A DNA stretch of 64,000 nt, from NCBI GenBank assembly GCA_025964675.1, contig JAOPYI010000044.1:1-64000 (forward strand), in the 5' to 3' direction. Position numbers and translations under genes: made by a program. The stretch is from Sphaerisporangium sp. (GTDB taxonomy: Bacteria > Actinomycetota > Actinomycetes > Streptosporangiales > Streptosporangiaceae). Below the pieces are notes generated by a model. It searched no databases and was not told the DNA's origin. It saw only the letters and a list, made by a program, of their open reading frames with translations. Numbering within the stretch: the first letter of the stretch is position 1; each line of letters begins with the position of its first letter. Below are positions 36,375 through 48,891 of this stretch, one piece after another.

Positions 36375-36390
36375 ACAAATTGTGATTTGT
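36375..36390. promoter_or_regulatory. Palindrome upstream of the LCP gene
   Basis: ACAAAT and ATTTGT, exact inverted copies, flank TGTG in an AT-rich stretch 75 bases before the LCP start. It could be an operator; no adjacent regulator gene supports it. Confidence 0.3.
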
Positions 36391-36464
36391 TCCGAAGGTG
36401 TTCACGCGCCTGTCGGGTCGTGCTAGTACATTTCCTCACTTGCGTCGACGCGAATGGGACAGCC

Positions 36465-37934
36465 TTGCCTGAAACAAGGAAGCCACGGGGAGCCGCCGCG
36501 GTCATCGGCTGGACGGCCCTCTCCGCCTTCCTTCCTGGCTCGGCGCACCTGCGCGCGGGTCACCGCCGTACCGGGCTGGCGCTGCTCGCAGGTTACGTCC
36601 TGGCGGTCGCGGCGCTCGGCGTGGCGGCCTTCAGAGCGGACGCCGATCTCGCCGGCCGCCTCCTCGATCCCGCCTGGCTGCGCGCCCTCATCGCCCTCGC
36701 GGTGATCGCGGCCATCTGCTGGTTCACCGTGCTGGTCCGCTCATACGTCATCCTGCGGCCTGGCGAGCTCTCCCAGGCGGGCCAGATCGTCTCAGGGGTG
36801 CTGACGGGGACGCTGGCGGTAGCCGTGGCGATGCCGTTCGTGGTCGTCGCCCAGTACGCGATGGTCTCCGAGGAGACGCTGAACACCGTCTTCGACGCCC
36901 CCCCGACCGTCGCGGCCGCCCCTACCGGCGCCCCGAGGCCCGCCGACCCCTGGGCGGGCAGGACCCGGGTGAACGTCCTGCTCCTCGGGGGCGACTGGCA
37001 GCCCGACCGTGTCGGCGTCCGCACCGACAGCATCAACCTGGCCAGCGTGGACGTGCGCACCGGCAACACCGTGCTGCTCAGCCTGCCGCGCAACCTGGAG
37101 AACGTCCGCTTCCCCCCGGGCAGCCCGCTGCATCAGCGGTTCCCCGCCGGATTCCGGCTGCCCGCCAACCCCGACGGGTCCCGGGAGGACCTGCTCTTCG
37201 CCGTGTGGGAGTACGCGGAGACCCATCCCGAGCTGTTCGGCGGGCGCACGGGCATGGGCCCGGAGACGCTGAAGGACACCATCGGGTACACCCTCGGCGT
37301 CGAGGTGGACTGGTACGCCCTGGTCAACATGTGGGGGCTGGCAAGGATCATCGACGCCCTCGGCGGCCTGACCCTCACCGTCCCCACCGACATCGTCTTC
37401 GGTAAGTACAACGAGGGGCTGGTCAAGGCCGGCACCCGCAGGCTGCGCGGCGCGGACGCGATGTGGTACGCCCGCTCGCGCACCTTCAGCGATGACTTCA
37501 CCCGGATGGGCCGCCAGCGGTGCGTGCTCGACGCCATGCTCCACCAGGCCGACCCGGCGACCGTGCTGCTCCGCTTCAACCAGCTCGCCAAGGCGTCGAA
37601 GGGGATGTTCCGCACCGACATCCCGCGCTCGATGCTGGAGCACCTGGTGCCGCTCGCCCTCAAGGTCAGGGACGCCCGCGTGACCGGGGTCCAGTTCGTA
37701 CCGCCTCTGATCAACACCGGCGCCCCGGACTGGGCACGCATACGCAAGCTGAGCGCCAAGGCCGTCCGTGAGTCGGTCCCCCGGGCGGCCACGCCGGGAA
37801 CCACCACGTCAGCGACCCCGGGAGCCCCTACGGCAAGGGCTTCCGGCACCGGGGCGCCGCCCTCACCGTCGCCTCGGATCACCCCGTCGGCGGAGGGCTC
37901 CTCCAAGATGACCGGTGACATCTGCGGCGTCTGA
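36465..37934 (+). CDS. LytR-CpsA-Psr (LCP) family cell-wall glycopolymer ligase
   Basis: An LCP protein of about 489 residues. Four N-terminal helices (WTALSAFLPGSAH to the QYAMVSEET region) are followed by the extracytoplasmic LCP domain: RVNVLLLGGDWQPDRVGVRTDSINLASVD, with the Arg/Asp residues that hold the polyprenyl pyrophosphate, LSLPRNLENV, and ARSRTFSDDFTRMGRQR, the catalytic Arg-rich segment. It would attach wall polymers to peptidoglycan. Several hydrophobic helices instead of one is a common actinobacterial variant. No ATG fits; TTG at 36465 matches the first acceptable start and TTG at 36387 is longer. C-terminal tail is Thr/Pro/Ala-rich. Confidence 0.88.
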   Translation: MPETRKPRGAAAVIGWTALSAFLPGSAHLRAGHRRTGLALLAGYVLAVAALGVAAFRADADLAGRLLDPAWLRALIALAVIAAICWFTVLVRSYVILRPGELSQAGQIVSGVLTGTLAVAVAMPFVVVAQYAMVSEETLNTVFDAPPTVAAAPTGAPRPADPWAGRTRVNVLLLGGDWQPDRVGVRTDSINLASVDVRTGNTVLLSLPRNLENVRFPPGSPLHQRFPAGFRLPANPDGSREDLLFAVWEYAETHPELFGGRTGMGPETLKDTIGYTLGVEVDWYALVNMWGLARIIDALGGLTLTVPTDIVFGKYNEGLVKAGTRRLRGADAMWYARSRTFSDDFTRMGRQRCVLDAMLHQADPATVLLRFNQLAKASKGMFRTDIPRSMLEHLVPLALKVRDARVTGVQFVPPLINTGAPDWARIRKLSAKAVRESVPRAATPGTTTSATPGAPTARASGTGAPPSPSPRITPSAEGSSKMTGDICGV

Positions 37935-40233: not shown

Positions 40234-41421
40234 TCAGAGCCGGAACGAGTCACTGGCAAGGCGGCGGACGCGGTCCTCGTCGACGAGGTGACCTAGGCCG
40301 GGCTGGGTGAGCGGGACGGCCACCACGCCACCGGAGGCCCCGACCGGCGGCGTCACGATCTGGGCGCTGCGCGGCGGCTCGGTCACGTCGCTCGGCAGCG
40401 TGCAGCCGGGCAGGCTCGCGACCGCGACGGTGGCCGCCCGGGCCAGCCCTGTGCCCCTGCCACCGGCCGCGGTGATGTCCCATCCCGCCGCCATCGCGCG
40501 GTCGTGCGCGAGCCGTACGGCGCGAAGTGACCCGAACCGGGACGGGTGAAGCAGGAGCGCGCGCCCGGCCCGCGCCGCGATGGCCTCCTCCAGGGCCGCC
40601 ACCGAGTGGACCTCGATCGCCACCAGGGAGGAGATCCGCTCCTGGAGCTCGGCGTGGAGATCGAGGTCGGCGGCGCCGTCGGGGCCTCCGAAAGGCCGTT
40701 CGATCGCCGTCACGTCGTAGGCGTCCAGCGCCTCGAGGGCCGTGGTCTCGGTGTAGGCGCCGCGACCGTCCACGGCGAGCGCGAGAGCGGGATACGCCTG
40801 GCGGACCGCCCGCACCGGCTCGACGTCCCAGCCGGGGTGCACGTCGAGAGTGACGTGGGCATACCCGGCGCACACGTGCCGGTTGACCCGGGCGACCATC
40901 GCCTCCAGCGACCGTTCGGCCGGCAGCCGTACGGTCGCCATCACGGACGTACGGCTGCCGCCGAGAGCGTGCGCCAGCGGGACTCCTCGCATGCGGGCCC
41001 ACAGGTCCCAGCACGCGAGGTCGACCGCTGTGCCACCGGGGACCGTGCCCAGCTCGTCGGGATGCTCCCAGTCGACTCCGAGGAGGGCAGGCCCGAGCGA
41101 CTCCTCCAGCGTCGTCCAGGTCTTCGCGAGCACATGGTCACGCTCGTTGTCTGATCCTTCGAGGCCGGCCGCCTCACTCCCCTGGCGAACGGCCCTCTGG
41201 ACGCTCTGATGAGCCACGCTCCCACGACCGGCCTTTTCGGCCCCCTGGTCAGTGACGGCGCGCGCGGCTCCCGCACGGGGGGACCGGCGGTCCGGCGACT
41301 GGACGACCTCGCCCCACCCCGTCATGCCCCCGTAGTCGGTGAGCTTGATCAGGATGCTCTCCGGACGCCTGCCATAGGGCAGTACGAGCCGGAAGACCTC
41401 GAGCTCACGGACGCGTGGCAT
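40234..41421 (-). CDS. Enolase-superfamily (MenC/N-acylamino acid racemase-like) protein without catalytic lysines
   Basis: A 395-residue member of the enolase superfamily nearest to o-succinylbenzoate synthase/N-acylamino acid racemase, as seen from TAVDLACWDLWARMRGVPLAH and HPGWDVEPVRAVRQAYP. The barrel residues that make those enzymes work are altered: the KxK acid/base pair is Thr191-Leu-Asp193, the opposite Lys is His292 (HPSRFGSL), and the segment that should read DES reads AIEVHS. The metal-ligand-like Asp218 and Glu241 remain. About 45 extra residues (41-95) fill the capping domain. It may be a pseudo-enzyme or a different chemistry. Alone on the minus strand. Confidence 0.8.
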   Translation of the reverse strand: MPRVRELEVFRLVLPYGRRPESILIKLTDYGGMTGWGEVVQSPDRRSPRAGAARAVTDQGAEKAGRGSVAHQSVQRAVRQGSEAAGLEGSDNERDHVLAKTWTTLEESLGPALLGVDWEHPDELGTVPGGTAVDLACWDLWARMRGVPLAHALGGSRTSVMATVRLPAERSLEAMVARVNRHVCAGYAHVTLDVHPGWDVEPVRAVRQAYPALALAVDGRGAYTETTALEALDAYDVTAIERPFGGPDGAADLDLHAELQERISSLVAIEVHSVAALEEAIAARAGRALLLHPSRFGSLRAVRLAHDRAMAAGWDITAAGGRGTGLARAATVAVASLPGCTLPSDVTEPPRSAQIVTPPVGASGGVVAVPLTQPGLGHLVDEDRVRRLASDSFRL

Positions 41422-41719
41422 GGAACCCCCTCGTCGAACACCTGCCCTTCCATGGTGCCCGTTGAGCGGATCTCGTCCAAACCGGGGGATGAACTAAATC
41501 CTCATTCGCGTTCCCTGGCCCCTACGACGGCGGGCGATGGTGCCCACGCGACGTCGAACCTGGCCGCCGGGCACTTCCGCAATGTAAGCGGCGTGTCTCA
41601 ACGACGCCGCCCCTCCCCTGTCGGCATTGCCTGACATTTCGTCATGTCTTCTGTCCTGCGACTGTTCTTGTGGTTTATCACCCCGTCTCCCGGACCGGGC
41701 ACCCCCGAAAGGACTCCCC
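41422..41719. other. Intergenic region between the enolase-like and nuclease genes
   Basis: A 298-base gap between divergent genes. It holds no gene I can support. One short inverted repeat GGCGT/ACGCC near 41590-41608 and a T-rich stretch near 41630-41680 suggest only ordinary promoter DNA for either gene. Confidence 0.4.
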
Positions 41720-43513
41720 GTGGCAACTTCGCGATATCGGCTCACCACCGTGAGCCTGCTCTCGTGTGTCACCCTTGCCTCGACGGCGCTGATCGCATCA
41801 CCCGCAGCGGCAGCTCCGACCACCATCCACGCGATCCAGGGCATCAACCGCAAGTCGACGATTCAGCAGGGAACCGTCAGCGGTATCGTCACCGCCATCC
41901 GTTCCACCGGGTCGAGCAGGGGTTTCTGGATCCAGGACCCCGCACCTGACAACGACCCGCGCACCAGCGAGGGCATCTTCGTCTACACCGGGTCCTCGAC
42001 GCCCAGCACCGTGGTGGGCAACAAGCTCAGCGTCACGGGCCAGGTCAGCGAGTACTACCCGGGCGGCTCAGCTGCCGGCGGGCAGTCGGTGACGGAGCTC
42101 ACCGGATCGTCCTGGACGACGATCTCCACCGGTAACCCGCTGCCGGCACCACTCGTGCTCACCGACGCCATGATCCCCGCCGCCTACACCGCAACGGGCA
42201 ACCTCGAAACCCTCACTCTCAACCCGACCAGCTACGCGTTGGATCTGCTGGAGTCGGTGGAAGGCATGCGGGTGCAGGTCGACAACGCCCGCGTCGTCGG
42301 CGCGGCCAACCAGTACAACGAGCTTTTCCTCACCGCCAAACCGGCGCAGAACCCGACCCCGCGCGGCGGCACCGTCTACGGCTCGTACGGGTCGCAGAAC
42401 TCGGGCCGTATCAAAGTGATGTCGCTGCTGGCCTCACCGCTCCCGCAGGCCAACGTTGGTGACGTGCTCACCGGGCCCACTGTCGGACCCCTGGACTATG
42501 ACAACTTCGGCGGGTACGTGATCGCCGCCACCACCCTGGGCGCACGCCAGAACAACAACCTCGCAGCCGAGGTCACCACCACGCAGGCCACCGATCAGCT
42601 CGCGATCGCCACCTACAACGTGGAAAACCTCGACCCTACCGACCCGCAGGCCAAGTTCGACCGGCTCGCCGCCGGGATCGTCACGAATCTCCGCTCGCCG
42701 GACGTCGTGGCCCTGGAGGAGATCCAGGACAACAACGGTCCCACCAACGATTCCGTTGTGGCCGCCGACCAGACCTACACCAAGCTGGTCAACGCGATCA
42801 CCGCAGCAGGCGGCCCGGCTTACTCCTACCGGCAGATCAACCCTGTTGACGACGCCGACGGCGGTGAGCCCGGTGGCAACATTCGCGTCGGTTTCCTGTT
42901 CAACCCCGCCCGGGTGACCTTCACCGATCGCCCCGGCGGCACCGCCACCGCCGCCGTCTCGGTGGTCAACAACGGCGGCATGGCGCAGCTGTCGTTGTCC
43001 CCGGGCCGGATCAGCCCGACCAACAGCAACTGGTCGGCGACCCGCAAGCCTCTCGCCGGCGAGTTCGTCTTCCAGGGCAAGACCGTCATCGTGATCGCCA
43101 ACCACTTCAGCTCCAAGGGGGGCGACCAGCCGCTGTACGCCCGTACGCAGCCGCCGACGCGCGGTTCGGACACCAAGCGCGGCCAGCAGGCCGCCATCGT
43201 CAACACGTTCGTCAAGCAGATCTTCGCCGTGCAGCCCACCGCCAGGGTCGTGGTCCTGGGCGACATCAACGACTACGAATTCTCCACCACCATGTCGAAC
43301 CTGCTCGCCGGCACGAGCATGACCGACCTGATCACCACGCTGCCTTCGGCCGAGCGCTACAGCTACACATATGAGGGCAACTCTCAGGTCCTCGACCACA
43401 TCATCACGAGCGCCGGCCTCGCCGATCACAACTACGACGTGGTCCACATCAACGCCGAGTTCGCCGACCGCGCGAGCGACCACGACCCGCAAATCGTGCG
43501 CGTACGCCCCTGA
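41720..43513 (+). CDS. Secreted endonuclease/exonuclease/phosphatase family nuclease (ExeM/NucH-like)
   Basis: A 597-residue exported protein. A Sec signal peptide (LTTVSLLSCVTLASTALIASPAAAA) is followed by an OB-fold-like N-domain (about 35-280) as in ExeM-type DNases and then an EEP domain: ATYNVENLDP, VVALEEIQDNNG, FLFNP, VIVIANHFSSKGGD, VVLGDINDYEF and DRASDHDPQIVR contain the Asn, Glu, Asp and His residues of the DNase I-like centre. It should cut extracellular DNA or RNA, perhaps to scavenge phosphate. GTG at 41720 has GAAAGGA upstream; the frame extends further without a signal peptide. Ends at a strong hairpin terminator. Confidence 0.92.
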   Translation: MATSRYRLTTVSLLSCVTLASTALIASPAAAAPTTIHAIQGINRKSTIQQGTVSGIVTAIRSTGSSRGFWIQDPAPDNDPRTSEGIFVYTGSSTPSTVVGNKLSVTGQVSEYYPGGSAAGGQSVTELTGSSWTTISTGNPLPAPLVLTDAMIPAAYTATGNLETLTLNPTSYALDLLESVEGMRVQVDNARVVGAANQYNELFLTAKPAQNPTPRGGTVYGSYGSQNSGRIKVMSLLASPLPQANVGDVLTGPTVGPLDYDNFGGYVIAATTLGARQNNNLAAEVTTTQATDQLAIATYNVENLDPTDPQAKFDRLAAGIVTNLRSPDVVALEEIQDNNGPTNDSVVAADQTYTKLVNAITAAGGPAYSYRQINPVDDADGGEPGGNIRVGFLFNPARVTFTDRPGGTATAAVSVVNNGGMAQLSLSPGRISPTNSNWSATRKPLAGEFVFQGKTVIVIANHFSSKGGDQPLYARTQPPTRGSDTKRGQQAAIVNTFVKQIFAVQPTARVVVLGDINDYEFSTTMSNLLAGTSMTDLITTLPSAERYSYTYEGNSQVLDHIITSAGLADHNYDVVHINAEFADRASDHDPQIVRVRP

Positions 43514-43629: not shown

Positions 43630-45015
43630 TCACCGTTTCACTCGGCCTGCGGTCAGGGGGCCGAGGGCGGCCTGACCGACGATCAGTCCGAAACAGGCCA
43701 GGTAGACCCACCAGGCGGTGTCGAACCCGGCGAAGACGGCGCCGGTGACGGCGATGACGACGACGGAGAAGACGGACTCGCCGATCTGCAGCGAAGAGCT
43801 GTTCCTGCCTTCTTCTCCAGGCTCGGAGAGCTCAAGGGTGAGGACCGACAGCGTCGGATAGACCAGGCCGATGCCGAACCCCGCGACCAGCCAGGCCACG
43901 AGGCCGAGCAGTATCGGGACGACGTCGAAGGTCAGAAGCGCCGTGCCAGCGATGCCCCCCGCGAGGAGCGCGGTGCCGACGCGCAGCAGCACCTTACGGT
44001 CGTACTTACGCCGCCCCTGGATCCAGGACGCGAGAGACCAGCTCAGCGCCGACCCGGTGAGGAAGAGTCCCGCCTGCGTCGGGCTGAGCCCGCGTTCACC
44101 GGTCAGCATGAGTGGCACGAACACATCGGCGGCGAAGGAAGCCCCCGCAGCCAGGCCGCGCAGGAGCACCACGGTGGGAAATCCCCGTGCCGCCCGCATC
44201 GTGCCGGGAGGCAGCAGCCTGGGGAGGGCGAACGCGAGAACGACCAGCCCCACCACTAGGAGGACGAGACCGCGCCCGCCGAGCCCGCTGCCGTACTGCA
44301 GGAGCGCGGCACCGACGGCCACCACGCCGCCCCACACGAGCCGGGCCCCGAATCCGGCACGGGAGGGGACAGGCTCCGCGCCGTCCCGTCGCGGAACGGC
44401 GGTGGCCCGCCCTGCCAGCCCGCGCCACAGCACCACGGCGGCGGGAGCGACCAGCACCGGGATCCCGAGGAAGATCCACCGCCAGCCGATGTGCTGCACC
44501 ACGGCGCCCGTGATCGCCGGCCCGACGATGGACGGAAGCACCCATGCCGCCGCCAGCAGCGAGAACACTCGCGGGTGCATCACCGCGGGATACACCTGGG
44601 CCACCAGGACGTACAGCGCCACCGAGAACAGGCCGCCGCCGATGCCCTGGACGAACCTGCCGATGATCAGGACGTGCATCGTGGGCGCGAACCCGGCTAT
44701 GAGCAGCCCCGCCACGAAACCGCCGACCCCCGTCCACAGCGGCGCCACCGGCCCGTGGACATCGCTCCACCGGCCACCGGCCACCGTGGCGATCACGCTG
44801 GCCGCCATCGAACCGCTGAACGCCAGCCCGTACAGGGAAAGCCCTCCGAGTGCCCGGGCGACCACCGGCATGGCCGTCGCCACCGCGAGGTACTCGAACG
44901 CGAGAAGAAGGACGAGGGCGACCATCCCGGCGCTCATCGCCCGGTACGGACGGCTGAGCACGCCGGGCGGCGCGCTGACAGGGGGAACGATCACGGCTGA
45001 AGACACCTGCCCCAA
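43630..45015 (-). CDS. MFS transporter (DHA-type efflux)
   Basis: A 461-residue major facilitator protein with about 14 helices. The N-terminal half shows AFEYLAVATAMPVVARALGGLSLYGLAFSGS split over two helices, the motif-A-like GGRWSDVHGP, and GRFVQGIGGGLFSVALYVLVAQVY (motif B/C region), typical of drug:H+ antiporters. Substrate unknown. The first usable start is TTG at 45015; GTG at 45006 is three codons later and either could be used. The gene stands alone, with no regulator near, and converges on the secreted nuclease terminator. Confidence 0.87.
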   Translation of the reverse strand: MGQVSSAVIVPPVSAPPGVLSRPYRAMSAGMVALVLLLAFEYLAVATAMPVVARALGGLSLYGLAFSGSMAASVIATVAGGRWSDVHGPVAPLWTGVGGFVAGLLIAGFAPTMHVLIIGRFVQGIGGGLFSVALYVLVAQVYPAVMHPRVFSLLAAAWVLPSIVGPAITGAVVQHIGWRWIFLGIPVLVAPAAVVLWRGLAGRATAVPRRDGAEPVPSRAGFGARLVWGGVVAVGAALLQYGSGLGGRGLVLLVVGLVVLAFALPRLLPPGTMRAARGFPTVVLLRGLAAGASFAADVFVPLMLTGERGLSPTQAGLFLTGSALSWSLASWIQGRRKYDRKVLLRVGTALLAGGIAGTALLTFDVVPILLGLVAWLVAGFGIGLVYPTLSVLTLELSEPGEEGRNSSSLQIGESVFSVVVIAVTGAVFAGFDTAWWVYLACFGLIVGQAALGPLTAGRVKR

Positions 45016-45191: not shown

Positions 45192-46370
45192 TTACGTGGC
45201 CCGGACCGCGAGGGTGCGTTCGGCCCATTGGGCGATGTCACGGCGCTCGATCGCGGCTGCCATCAGTCCCGGGAAGGCGTCGGGGGTGCACGCGAACGCC
45301 GGGACGCCCAGCGCGGCCAGTGCCTCGGCGTTGTCCCGGTCGTAGTGGGGCTGGCCTTCGTCGGAGAGGGCGAGCAGCACGATGACCTGCACGCCCGCCG
45401 CCGTCATGGCGGCGACCCTGCGCAGCATCTCCTCCCGTACGCCGCCTTCGTACAGGTCGCTGATCAGAATGAAGATGGAGCTCGCCGGGCGGGTGATCAG
45501 CCCCTGGCAGTAGGCGATGGCACGGTTGATGTCGGTGCCGCCACCGAGCTGGGTGCCGAACAGCAGCTCCACGGGGTCGTGCAGCTGATCGGTGAGGTCG
45601 ACCACGCTCGTGTCGAAGACCACCAGCGAGGTGCGGAGCGAGCGCATCGACGCCAGCACGGCACCGAAGACACTGGAGTAGACCACCGACGCCGCCATCG
45701 AGCCGCTCTGGTCGATGCACAGCGTCACCTCTCGGATCACCGCGCGCTGCTTGCGGGCGTACCCGACGAGCCGGGACGGCACGACCGTGTTCTTCTCCGG
45801 CAGGTAGTTCTTGAGGTTGGCGCGGATAGTGCGGTCCCAGTCGATGTCGGCGACCCGGCGCGGCCGGTTGGTGCGTGCCGACCGGTCGAGCGCCCCGGTG
45901 ATGGCGGTCCTGGTGCGCTGCGCCAGCCTGCGCTCCAGGTCGGCCACGACCTTCCTGACGACCACGCGTGCCGACCGCCGTGCCGTCTCGGGCATCACCC
46001 GGTTGAGCGAGAGCAGCGTGCCGACCAGGTGGACGTCGGGCTCCACGGCCTCCAGCATCTCGGGTTCGAGCAGCAGGCGGGTGAGGTTGAGCCGCTCGAT
46101 GGCGTCTTTCTGCATGACCTGGACGACCGTCGAAGGGAAGTAGGAGCGGATGTCCCCGAGCCACCTCGCGACCCGTGGCGCCGAGGCACCCAGGCCCGCG
46201 GCACGCTGGGCGTCGCCGCCTCCACCCGCGCCGTCGCCCGTGGCGCGCCCGCTGTTGTAGAGCGCGGCGAGGGCCGCGTCCATCTGGGAGTCCCTACCGC
46301 TCAGGGCGCATCCCGTGCCGTCCGCGTCACCGCCCAGCACCAACCGCCACCTGCGCAAACGCTCATCCAT
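45192..46370 (-). CDS. VWA domain protein, last gene of the SWIM/DUF5691/MoxR/DUF5682 operon
   Basis: A 392-residue protein whose last 180 residues form a VWA (von Willebrand A) domain with an intact MIDAS: DQSGSM with Asp220, Ser222 and Ser224, GGGTDIN for the Thr and ISDLYEG for the second Asp. The first 210 residues are helical, with a Gly/Ala-rich linker near 42-62. VWA proteins bind a metal and a partner acidic residue, and typically act with a MoxR ATPase, here encoded two genes upstream. Cytoplasmic; no signal or helix. Gap of 76 bases from the DUF5682 stop. Last gene of the operon. Confidence 0.9.
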   Translation of the reverse strand: MDERLRRWRLVLGGDADGTGCALSGRDSQMDAALAALYNSGRATGDGAGGGGDAQRAAGLGASAPRVARWLGDIRSYFPSTVVQVMQKDAIERLNLTRLLLEPEMLEAVEPDVHLVGTLLSLNRVMPETARRSARVVVRKVVADLERRLAQRTRTAITGALDRSARTNRPRRVADIDWDRTIRANLKNYLPEKNTVVPSRLVGYARKQRAVIREVTLCIDQSGSMAASVVYSSVFGAVLASMRSLRTSLVVFDTSVVDLTDQLHDPVELLFGTQLGGGTDINRAIAYCQGLITRPASSIFILISDLYEGGVREEMLRRVAAMTAAGVQVIVLLALSDEGQPHYDRDNAEALAALGVPAFACTPDAFPGLMAAAIERRDIAQWAERTLAVRAT

Positions 46371-46446
46371 CAGACGCTCCCATCCGTCACCCTGAAACCC
46401 CGGTCCATCAAGGGACCCACATCGAGAACCCGGGCACCGCGGGCCA

Positions 46447-48891
46447 TCAGGTGCTTCCCAGGATCGTGAGGACGGTCCGCACGGCGGGAGCCGCGCGATC
46501 TGTATCGGTCTCGAGGGTGACGGCCCTTCCCGTCTCGCCCGAGGAGACCCTCCCGCCGATGGCCCGGCGCTCGGGTGGCGTGAAGGCTCCGAACGTACGG
46601 CGGAGCAGTGGAAGCACGTCGACGAACGCCTCTTCCGCCAGCCCTGTCAGCCACGTGTCGATGAGGCCGAGCAGGCCGGCGTCGTGGACGAGGAGAAGGC
46701 CGCTGCCCGACAGGAACCCCTCGACCCAGGCAGCCGCCTGTGTGGGAGTGTTGCCGGCCGACATCGAGCGGGACATGCGCCGCGCGACCTCCTCGGCCGG
46801 GATCGTGCCCGCGTCGAGCAGGATGCGGGTCAGCCGCCCTCCGATCAGCCCGTGCAGGTCACGGCGCTCGGCGACCCCGCGCAGAGCCGCCAGCCAGCCT
46901 TTCCTGCGGGACTCCAGCAGCCCGACGGACGCGTGAACCGCGTCCACGTGACCCAGCAGCGCCCGCGCCGAGTCGTCGTCGAGCCCGGTGACCGCCGCCG
47001 AGAGCCCCGCGCAGATACGGCTGAGCAGCGACTCCACGATCACCGACAGCCCCTGTGCGGGCGTGCCCCGCACGTCGCCGTACCGCTGCGCGCGCACGAG
47101 GGCGGGAAGGGCCGCCATCAGGTGGGTGACGTCGCTGTCGAGGGCCGCCCTGGTCGAGATCGACGACAGGACATGGGGTAAGGCCTCCGGCAGGTCGGCC
47201 AGCAGGCAGCGCTCCGCCACCCCGGTGAGCGCCGCCAGCGTTCTCGGCGACGAGGGACCGGCCGCCCCGGGCCCCGCGTGACGGGCCACCCGTCCCGATC
47301 CCAGATCGACGACTTCCCGCACCCGCGCGGTGGCGGCGGCCGGGACGGTGGTGCCGTACGCGCTCGCCTCGATCAGGTCGATGTCGAACTCCGGACGCCA
47401 TCCGAGCGTCCAGGACTCGCGGAAGGTGCCCTTGCCGCGAGCTTCGCGTGGCGAACCCCATTCCACACCGATCAGGCGCAGCCGGTGAAGCAGGCGGCTG
47501 CGGTCGAGATCGAGAGGTTTACGAAGGTCGAGATCGAGGTCGCGTTCGAGCGCCTCGGGCCGGAGCTTCAGACGTCGCTGCCGATCGCGAAGATCGCGCT
47601 GGAGGGGCACCATGGGCGTGCTCTCCGGGACGCCGCCGAGCCGCTCACCCACGACCATGCGCCGCTGGATCAGCTCCACGGGCAGCTCGTCGCCCTCGCA
47701 GAGCACCGCCCGGACGGCCTCGGTCACCTCTCCAAGCCCGGCCAGGGGACGACCCCGCACGACCGCAAGGCTGTTCGCTAGCCGTACGGCCTCGATGACA
47801 TGGGCGGACGAGACAGGCAGATCCTCCTCCCGCAGCGCCCTGGCAGCCGCGGCGAGCCAGCGCTCGATCGGACGGTCGGGCGCGGCGAACAGATGGTCGT
47901 ACCAGCCGGGCGAGGTGATGCCCGCGCCGTAACCGCTCCAGGAGGCGAGCCGCCCGTACGTCCACGGCACCCAGGTCATCTCCACCTTGACCTTGGGCAG
48001 GCCTCTGAGAAGGCGCTCGTCGTGGGCGGCGGGTCCGAGCTCGCGCAGCGCCGGGACGTGCCAGGCTCCGCACACCACCGCGACGCGCTGGTAGCCGTCC
48101 TTGAAGGCGGTACGGATGGTCTTGCGCATGTACGCCTCGCGGCGGGCCTCGCGCTCGTGCGGTGTGTACCCCTCCCTGACCGCCGCCATCGCCTCGGCGA
48201 TCACCTCGAAGGGCGTGTCACCGCGATGCTCGACGGCGTCCTCCCACCAGCGTTCGGGATCGTCGTACCCAGCAGCCTCGGCCAGCTCCCCAATCGGATC
48301 ACGGGCCGCACCATTAGGTGCCACACCGCCAGGGCCAGCACCATCAGGATCCGCGCCATCAGGGTCCGCACTACCAGGGGCAGAATCGCCGGGGCCGGGT
48401 TGAGGGGGGGTGGCCTCGCCGGGTGCGGAATCGGCGGGTTCGGCGTCGACGGCCGGTGGGGCACCGCCAGGGGGCGGCGAGGTGGCATCTCGCTCCGCGA
48501 GGCTGTGAGTGGCGGGCAGGTCGCAGAACCGGACGGGGATGCCCGCGCGGGCGGCATAGCGGATCGCCTGCCACTCGGGGGAGAACACCGCGAACGGCCA
48601 GAACGCCGCCCTTGACGGCTCTCCCGGGACGTGTGCCAGCAGCGCCACGGGGGGCTTCATGTCGGGATCGGCCGCAAGCGCCACCAGCCCGTCAGCCTCC
48701 GGCGGCCCCTCGATGAGCACGATGTCGGGCCGCAGCCGCTCCAGCTCGGCCGCCACAGCCCGCGCGGACCCAGGCCCATGATGCCGCACCCCAAGCACCG
48801 TGGACCTGGTGCGAGGTTCGGATGGCTGCGGCCTCGTCAGCGTGCTTCGGGGATCCTTAGGAGGCATCGCGGCAGGCCCGGTAGAAGTCAC
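46447..48891 (-). CDS. DUF5682 family protein (TraB/EreA-like fold suspected)
   Basis: An 814-residue protein of the DUF5682 type. The N-terminus RHHGPGS (36-42) and DIVLIEGPPEADGL, and later VVCGAWHVPAL, are the conserved pieces; the H..G start, EGP and G.WH spacing recall the TraB/ChaN/erythromycin-esterase fold, which I infer. A Pro/Asp/Gly-rich insert with repeated DPDGA units sits around residues 145-195. The remainder (about 300-814) is helical and without a known domain. Function unknown; it always travels with MoxR and VWA genes in the families I know. GTG at 48891 overlaps the MoxR stop by 35 bases; ATG at 48867 is an alternative. Confidence 0.82.
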   Translation of the reverse strand: MTSTGPAAMPPKDPRSTLTRPQPSEPRTRSTVLGVRHHGPGSARAVAAELERLRPDIVLIEGPPEADGLVALAADPDMKPPVALLAHVPGEPSRAAFWPFAVFSPEWQAIRYAARAGIPVRFCDLPATHSLAERDATSPPPGGAPPAVDAEPADSAPGEATPPQPGPGDSAPGSADPDGADPDGAGPGGVAPNGAARDPIGELAEAAGYDDPERWWEDAVEHRGDTPFEVIAEAMAAVREGYTPHEREARREAYMRKTIRTAFKDGYQRVAVVCGAWHVPALRELGPAAHDERLLRGLPKVKVEMTWVPWTYGRLASWSGYGAGITSPGWYDHLFAAPDRPIERWLAAAARALREEDLPVSSAHVIEAVRLANSLAVVRGRPLAGLGEVTEAVRAVLCEGDELPVELIQRRMVVGERLGGVPESTPMVPLQRDLRDRQRRLKLRPEALERDLDLDLRKPLDLDRSRLLHRLRLIGVEWGSPREARGKGTFRESWTLGWRPEFDIDLIEASAYGTTVPAAATARVREVVDLGSGRVARHAGPGAAGPSSPRTLAALTGVAERCLLADLPEALPHVLSSISTRAALDSDVTHLMAALPALVRAQRYGDVRGTPAQGLSVIVESLLSRICAGLSAAVTGLDDDSARALLGHVDAVHASVGLLESRRKGWLAALRGVAERRDLHGLIGGRLTRILLDAGTIPAEEVARRMSRSMSAGNTPTQAAAWVEGFLSGSGLLLVHDAGLLGLIDTWLTGLAEEAFVDVLPLLRRTFGAFTPPERRAIGGRVSSGETGRAVTLETDTDRAAPAVRTVLTILGST

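Follow-up and report, generated by a model that had tools for sequence, protein, structure and literature searches.

The locus and its predicted product

The window analysed here, a stretch of 64,000 nucleotides from a Sphaerisporangium sp. genome, encodes on its minus strand a protein of 395 amino acids (positions 40234–41421, stop codon included; Table 1); the same frame on the plus strand is interrupted by stops. The reading frame is real, and Thr191, Asp193, His292 and the segment AIEVHS all stand where an earlier, sequence-only reading of the gene had placed them. Residues 175–383 match Pfam MR_MLE_C at 78.7 bits (cut-off, 29.4), and MR_MLE_N is approached at just 19.8 bits (cut-off, 22). 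The best NCBIfam match is TIGR01928, the equivalog model of o-succinylbenzoate synthase (OSBS), at 98.3 bits and therefore under the cut-off of 200.65, above which canonical proteins score (320 for locus L005, 316 for L006 and 303.5 for L038).

The top sequence relatives in the PDB are N-acylamino acid racemases (NAAARs; E = 8.5e-41). An AlphaFold2 model of the protein has a mean pLDDT of 81.7 and a pTM of 0.80, with pLDDT values below 50 at residues 45–89, and structure alignment to the Thermus NAAAR (2zc8) gives Z 41.8 and 1.9 Å over 337 residues. A short relative without the linker, the Streptosporangium-type L020, is predicted with a pLDDT of 92.7 and a pTM of 0.90 and aligns to 2zc8 with Z 42.5. 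The predicted cap-plus-barrel fold is complete and, on these models, the protein is an enolase-superfamily member by fold, nearest to the N-succinylamino acid racemase (NSAR)/OSBS type.

Table 1 Features of the locus (window coordinates)
Feature	Position	Strand	Basis
Candidate enolase-superfamily pseudoenzyme CDS, 395 aa	40234..41421	-	Pfam MR_MLE_C at residues 175-383
Residues 1-41, N terminus of cap domain, most constrained of three segments measured	41299..41421	-	dN/dS 0.041
GRRPES motif, residues 17-22, in place of the 20s loop	41356..41373	-	near-invariant in Thr-type rows
Residues 42-95, disordered variable linker	41137..41298	-	pLDDT <50 at 45-89, dN/dS 0.76, length variation
Thr191-Leu192-Asp193, at the Lys-x-Lys position	40843..40851	-	alignment
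Asp218, first metal-ligand position, retained	40768..40770	-	109/109 Thr-type, 22/29 Arg-type rows
Glu241, second metal-ligand position, retained	40699..40701	-	101/109 Thr-type, 29/29 Arg-type rows
Glu270, third metal-ligand position (canonical Asp)	40612..40614	-	Glu/Asp in 71/71 close sequences; varies outside
His292, at the second catalytic Lys	40546..40548	-	69 Arg, 1 Lys, 1 His among 71 close sequences
Promoter-like GTTT-N19-GGCACYATGG, 33 bases	41450..41482	-	recurs upstream in many close relatives
Endonuclease/exonuclease/phosphatase-family gene, between the MFS gene and the candidate pseudoenzyme	41627..43513	+	family scan
MFS transporter, upstream neighbour	43630..45015	-	Pfam MFS_1
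LCP (LytR-CpsA-Psr) protein, convergent, past the FAD oxidase	36387..37934	+	family scan, neighbourhood survey

Likeness to the NAAAR/NSAR enzymes of Deinococcus (2ggj and 1r0m) and Thermus (2zc8) extends over the whole fold (Z 41.2–41.8, 337–338 residues, 31–32% identity) and includes the PGWD region and the ligand positions Asp218 and Glu241. The 395-residue protein differs from these enzymes in the loss of all three lysine positions, an Asp-to-Glu change at the third metal ligand, the disappearance of the Glu-Ser that follows it and a shortened 20s loop; moreover, no M20 deacylase or acyltransferase was found among the eight flanking genes scanned. It resembles OSBS of the NSAR/OSBS type (Amycolatopsis 1sjb, Z 40.4) in fold and in its best NCBIfam model, but it falls short of the cut-off of that model, lacks the lysines and is encoded outside the stretch read around menD.

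In the alignment, the canonical Lys-x-Lys, Asp, Glu, Asp and Lys become Thr191-x-Asp193, Asp218, Glu241, Glu270 and His292, and no alignment shifts a catalytic lysine elsewhere. The sequence-only reading had these residues right, but the histidine that it placed opposite the Lys-x-Lys motif is specific to one genome, and 69 of 71 close sequences have Arg292. Similarly, AIEVHS does stand in place of the DES segment, but three metal-binding-like acids remain and not two: a two-residue deletion follows Glu270 (AIE--VHS against canonical CLDES), with acids at all three aligned ligand positions (D218, E241 and E270). A pair of lysines acts as bases in NSAR and OSBS (PMC8142540), and the dipeptide epimerases of the superfamily are described as carrying out Mg2+-assisted proton abstraction at an alpha carbon flanked by two conserved lysines (PMC5808125). 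Because all three lysine positions are changed, the known mechanism is unavailable to the 395-residue protein, and the claim that it cannot abstract a proton in the manner of MenC or NAAAR holds, with the substitutions common to its relatives.

A clade without the base lysine

We compared 169 sequences and typed them by residue 191, which is Thr in 109, Arg in 29 and Lys in 31. The rows were collected by similarity rather than by even sampling, and 165 are distinct over the core. Eight copies of G-handle loci (L069, L070, L071, L081, L091, L113, L127 and L144), which do figure among the 80 named loci of the neighbourhood survey, were excluded from the 169, as were L149, L157, L162, L165 and L171; other near-copies across collections stay in (for example, L133 and L161), and L067, L186 and L187 were typed later and stand outside this set. 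We call close the 71 Thr-type sequences that are more than 62% identical to the 395-residue protein, and outer the other 38 Thr-type rows; the protein itself is counted in the 71 and in the 138 rows of Thr or Arg type.

By definition of the groups, the base lysine is absent from those 138 rows, among which Lys193 and Lys292 occur in one row each; the full canonical set is present in 31 of 31 Lys191 rows. Orthologues carry the same substitutions, which are not the decay of one genome. Named members come from the Streptosporangiaceae and Thermomonosporaceae, including Sphaerisporangium, Streptosporangium, Microbispora, Nonomuraea, Planobispora, Herbidospora, Actinoallomurus, Actinomadura and others. 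Two genomes each hold a canonical racemase-like gene and an Arg-type gene (L152 and L067 in G017; L151 and L187 in G067).

A maximum-likelihood tree was calculated from 91 of the 169 rows (less than 86% identity) by a quick method with no bootstrap, omitting the six active-site columns. All 67 Thr- and Arg-type rows in the tree share one side of a branch with an SH-aLRT value of 99, nested inside canonical rows, the nearest outgroups being L031, L038 and L150–L152. Since they form a single clade among canonical proteins, catalysis was probably lost a single time, which is the simplest reading of this tree. The outgroups belong to the same order but retain Lys-x-Lys, Asp, Glu, Asp and Lys intact; an M20-peptidase gene lies near L031, L038 and L152, and the gene beside L038 (L066:1260-2072), which has no Pfam or NCBIfam family, we take by eye to be a GNAT acyltransferase. 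The Thr-type label needs two changes on the tree, the divergent L153 branching separately; a single origin of the Thr type could still hold. L153 (G124:C6:224203-225312) is the most divergent Thr-type row: it has TLT, retains Asp218, carries Arg both at the position of Glu241 and at 292, and has a 20s loop of canonical length.

The barrel mouth of the close clade is conserved as Thr, Asp/Asn/Glu, Asp, Glu/Gln, Glu/Asp and mostly Arg. All 71 close sequences have Asp, Asn or Glu at site 193 and Glu or Asp at site 270, and 69 have Arg292, although sites 193, 241, 270 and 292 rank only 33–47% from the most conserved and this clade is also the least diverged. Sites 193 and 270 lie at the 97th and 94th entropy percentiles in outer Thr-type rows and at the 71st and 97th in Arg-type rows. 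In 21 of the 38 outer Thr-type rows the residue at site 193 is one of Ala, Arg, Thr, Gly, Gln, Pro and Lys, and 22 of the 38 carry Ala, His, Gly, Tyr, Gln or Arg at site 270. Counted by type, 25 of the 29 Arg-type rows and 85 of the 109 Thr-type rows have an acid at site 193. The variation of both sites outside the close clade makes it unlikely that the whole family shares one new mechanism without lysine.

Two further changes were missing from the sequence-only reading: the shortening of a cap segment that we take to be the 20s loop, presumably with a role in specificity, from 23 to 13 residues, and the loss of 7–10 residues from segment 118–136. The loop has 23 residues in 30 of the 31 canonical rows (the other is a partial racemase of Deinococcus radiodurans that does not cover it) and 13 in 108 of the 109 Thr-type rows, the exception being L153. 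In its place, 107 of the 109 Thr-type rows have the motif G.[RK].[EQ][STC], most often GRRPES; all 29 Arg-type and all 31 canonical rows are without it (the partial one lacks the loop). Arg-type loops vary from 13 to 27 residues, and the loop change is therefore a trait of the Thr-type clade and not of the whole family. Segment 118–136 corresponds to 27 residues in canonical and Arg-type rows, compared with 17–20 in the close clade.

We estimated dN/dS by the Nei–Gojobori method with Jukes–Cantor correction. Among eleven same-genus sequences (55 pairs, which are not independent), the median is 0.159 for the barrel (residues 105–390), 0.041 for residues 1–41 and 0.759 for the linker (residues 42–95); the barrel medians of three further genus groups are 0.125, 0.184 and 0.218. 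No listed homologous match has a stop inside it. The gene is under purifying selection and is a working gene; with a barrel value of about 0.16 and open frames, the decay that the sequence-only reading had allowed for is not seen. The insertion of about 45 residues that it had placed at 41–95 exists as an extra stretch, but it is a disordered, fast-evolving linker of variable length and not a domain. The stretch that matches residues 39–101 has 7–10 residues in 53 of the 71 close sequences, 24–118 in all 11 rows of the Sphaerisporangium-genus group and 14–23 in the other 7 longer rows. In L014 (G007), which is probably identical with L069 of Sphaerisporangium corydalis, the linker reaches 118 residues and has GRTVEG-type repeats.

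Upstream element and gene neighbourhood

The promoter-like element that precedes the start codon was searched for in its strict form and in a relaxed form. Only rows with DNA and at least 150 upstream bases were used, which gave 70 of 71 close, 37 of 38 outer Thr-type, 23 of 29 Arg-type and 28 of 31 canonical upstream regions. The strict pattern is present in 39 and the relaxed pattern in 47 of the 70 close sequences; neither is found in the remaining 23, Streptosporangium rows included, or in any of the 88 others (outer Thr-type, Arg-type and canonical). Of the strict matches, 37 span 33 bases and 2 span 34, and the distance from their first base to the start codon ranges from 55 to 150 bases. 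The 10-base core, GGCACYATGG, is present in 49 of the 70 close sequences; none of the 158 controls made by a plain base shuffle contains it. A promoter would be expected to keep its inner spacing while its distance from the start varies, as here, and we call the element promoter-like on this pattern.

In the entire Sphaerisporangium sp. genome the strict pattern has a single occurrence, at this locus, where it has been retained despite the endonuclease-family gene between the 395-residue protein's gene and the MFS gene. The pattern thus pointed to no co-regulated genes, and a regulon was rejected. An upstream mini-ORF, considered because the element contains an ATG, was likewise rejected: six relaxed rows have ACACTGG without an ATG, and the reading frame is not constant with respect to the gene.

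At 54 of the 59 named close loci an MFS gene lies upstream on the same strand, within 300 bases in 46 of them, and at 46 of the 59 an LCP gene lies downstream and convergent. The LCP gene is upstream on the same strand at 14 of 21 outer Thr-type loci; 13 of those 14 LCP proteins are 41–47% identical to the LCP protein in the window and one is 30% identical. Genes for VWA (CoxE-like) and DUF5682 proteins (45192–48891 in the window) lie further upstream on the same strand at 50 and 47 of the 59 close loci, respectively. Only these genes recur among the tested neighbours; the intervening endonuclease/exonuclease/phosphatase-family protein has no match at E ≤ 1e-15 across the 80 named loci. Arg-type loci have different neighbours, an alanine dehydrogenase and a methyltransferase, and the neighbourhood was set aside as a functional clue, given that no common pathway emerged across Thr- and Arg-type loci. 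The MFS transporter and the LCP cell-wall protein are positional leads to a partner, not proof of one. As the Arg type has neither GRRPES nor the shortened loop, and the upstream element is confined to the close clade, neither feature explains the whole family.

Possible roles of the protein

We think it likely that the protein is a lineage-conserved pseudoenzyme that has been repurposed for binding, scaffolding or sensing. The choice that the sequence-only reading had posed, between a pseudo-enzyme and a new chemistry, is supported by substitutions shared with relatives, the lack of decay, canonical paralogues in the genome and a predicted fold that is intact. An ancestral N-succinylamino-acid-racemase-like protein of this actinobacterial order would have lost its base lysine to Thr or Arg; the partner in Lys-x-Lys would have become mostly Asp or Glu, and the opposite lysine mostly Arg. 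The Thr-type clade would additionally have lost most of the 20s loop, and the protein would have been retained for another job. Such a repurposed protein would perform no enolate chemistry. Its cap domain (residues 1–41, with GRRPES) may be a protein–protein surface, and its barrel mouth (Thr191, Asp218, Glu241 and Arg/His292) would at most hold a small acidic or metal-bound ligand. It could act as a binding, scaffold or sensor protein.

Pseudoenzymes of other superfamilies, such as pseudokinases, are alike in having lost catalytic residues while conserving the fold, as described in passages of PMC10415035 that name no enolase-superfamily pseudoenzyme; purifying selection is seen for the family of the 395-residue protein as well. 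Such a lysine-less clade is not described among the open-access literature matches listed, which is not proof of absence.

A possible, though doubtful, alternative is that the protein is an active and probably metal-dependent enzyme with a new chemistry, in which the acid at 193 (or Thr191 or Arg292) replaces the lysines and Asp218, Glu241 and Glu270 hold the metal. The barrel mouth of the close clade is fixed and not drifting, as is Asp218 throughout the Thr type, and such conservation would be needless for a pure scaffold; the acid that most Arg- and Thr-type rows have at 193 could also be a base. However, more than half of the outer Thr-type rows have no acid at 193 (21 of 38) or at 270 (22 of 38), and a mechanism of this sort could therefore not work throughout the family. 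The shortened 20s loop also counts against it, and no pathway-like neighbours were seen among the flanking genes and loci surveyed. Between the two readings the sequences lean, although not decisively, towards a pseudo-enzyme: the loop is cut, and outside the close clade site 270 belongs to the most variable positions of both sub-clades, as does site 193 in one. It is conceivable, if unlikely, that the close sub-clade (Streptosporangiaceae) has remodelled its barrel mouth into a Thr-x-Asp/Asp/Glu/Glu/Arg metal site with a carboxylate base, which would catalyse a reaction or sense a metabolite. To our knowledge, no described member of the enolase superfamily handles such a reaction or metabolite without a lysine or a histidine.

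We give only a slight chance to the protein being a regulatory subunit that forms a mixed oligomer with an active NSAR/OSBS paralogue. Its own genome does encode two canonical paralogues (L005 and L006), and both kinds occur in G017 and G067. However, the Thr-type genome G025 has no second place that matches its protein at E ≤ 1e-10 (its two rows are fragments of a single gene), the canonical query finds one match there at E ≤ 1e-60, and five Arg-type genomes (G016, G020, G028, G031 and G033) have a single match at E ≤ 1e-10, in G033 with 31 of 44 first-look candidates scored. As genomes with a lone Thr- or Arg-type protein exist, a paralogue partner is not generally needed.

It is very unlikely that the 395-residue protein is the missing MenC, producing o-succinylbenzoate by an altered mechanism. 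The idea draws on the menaquinone genes. MenD is encoded in all 44 genomes, that of Sphaerisporangium sp. included, where the AMP-binding and enoyl-CoA-hydratase-family genes beside it are read as menE and menB and where no PF02621 match (futalosine-pathway MqnA/D) was found. A PF18374-type MenC is present in 31 of the 44 genomes, on the same contig and about 3 kb or less from menD, and is missing in 13, among them Sphaerisporangium sp.; the stretch read around its menD contains no menC, and likewise not the gene of the 395-residue protein. Against the idea, all 13 have another NSAR/OSBS-type place, shown by sequence to have Lys-x-Lys in 10 (G000, G001, G005, G009, G014, G015, G019, G022, G032 and G037) and recognised by similarity only in 3 (G003, G006 and G008). 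In addition, 28 of the 31 genomes with a PF18374-type MenC were typed, and all 28 also have a Thr- or Arg-type protein; G025 combines that MenC with a Thr-type protein and has no further NSAR/OSBS-type match. An altered MenC was rejected on these two grounds. OSBS activity in the 13 genomes may instead be supplied by a canonical NSAR/OSBS paralogue. The sequence-only reading had raised the matter of a second, normal menC, and in Sphaerisporangium sp. L005 and L006, both over the OSBS cut-off, could act as one; the canonical genes can fill the MenC and racemase roles. L006 is grouped with an M20 peptidase, an M19 dipeptidase and an AsnC-type regulator, the transporter genes there being named by eye. 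L196 (G000:C166:4088-4420) is a weak MR_MLE_C match with an open minus-strand frame near an M20-peptidase-looking gene.

A pseudogene in decay, suggested by the lost catalytic residues, an Arg-to-His292 change private to one genome and the long disordered linker, has next to no chance of being right and is refuted for the family by dN/dS values of 0.16 and 0.04, open frames in every listed match, an upstream element kept in many close relatives and a conserved neighbourhood, and this genome's copy has no frameshift.

The likely pseudoenzyme is also an annotation trap: its nearest NCBIfam model is o-succinylbenzoate synthase, and the Arg-type L033 reaches 200.1 where the cut-off is 200.65. The enolase superfamily is a textbook example of the diversification of one partial reaction, the Mg2+-assisted removal of an alpha proton. 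This clade seems to have dropped the reaction of its superfamily while keeping the fold, and is conserved in at least two actinobacterial families. It thereby offers a testable case of the passage from enzyme to non-enzyme, in which the canonical outgroups can be compared with two different forms of the pocket, the Thr type and the Arg type.
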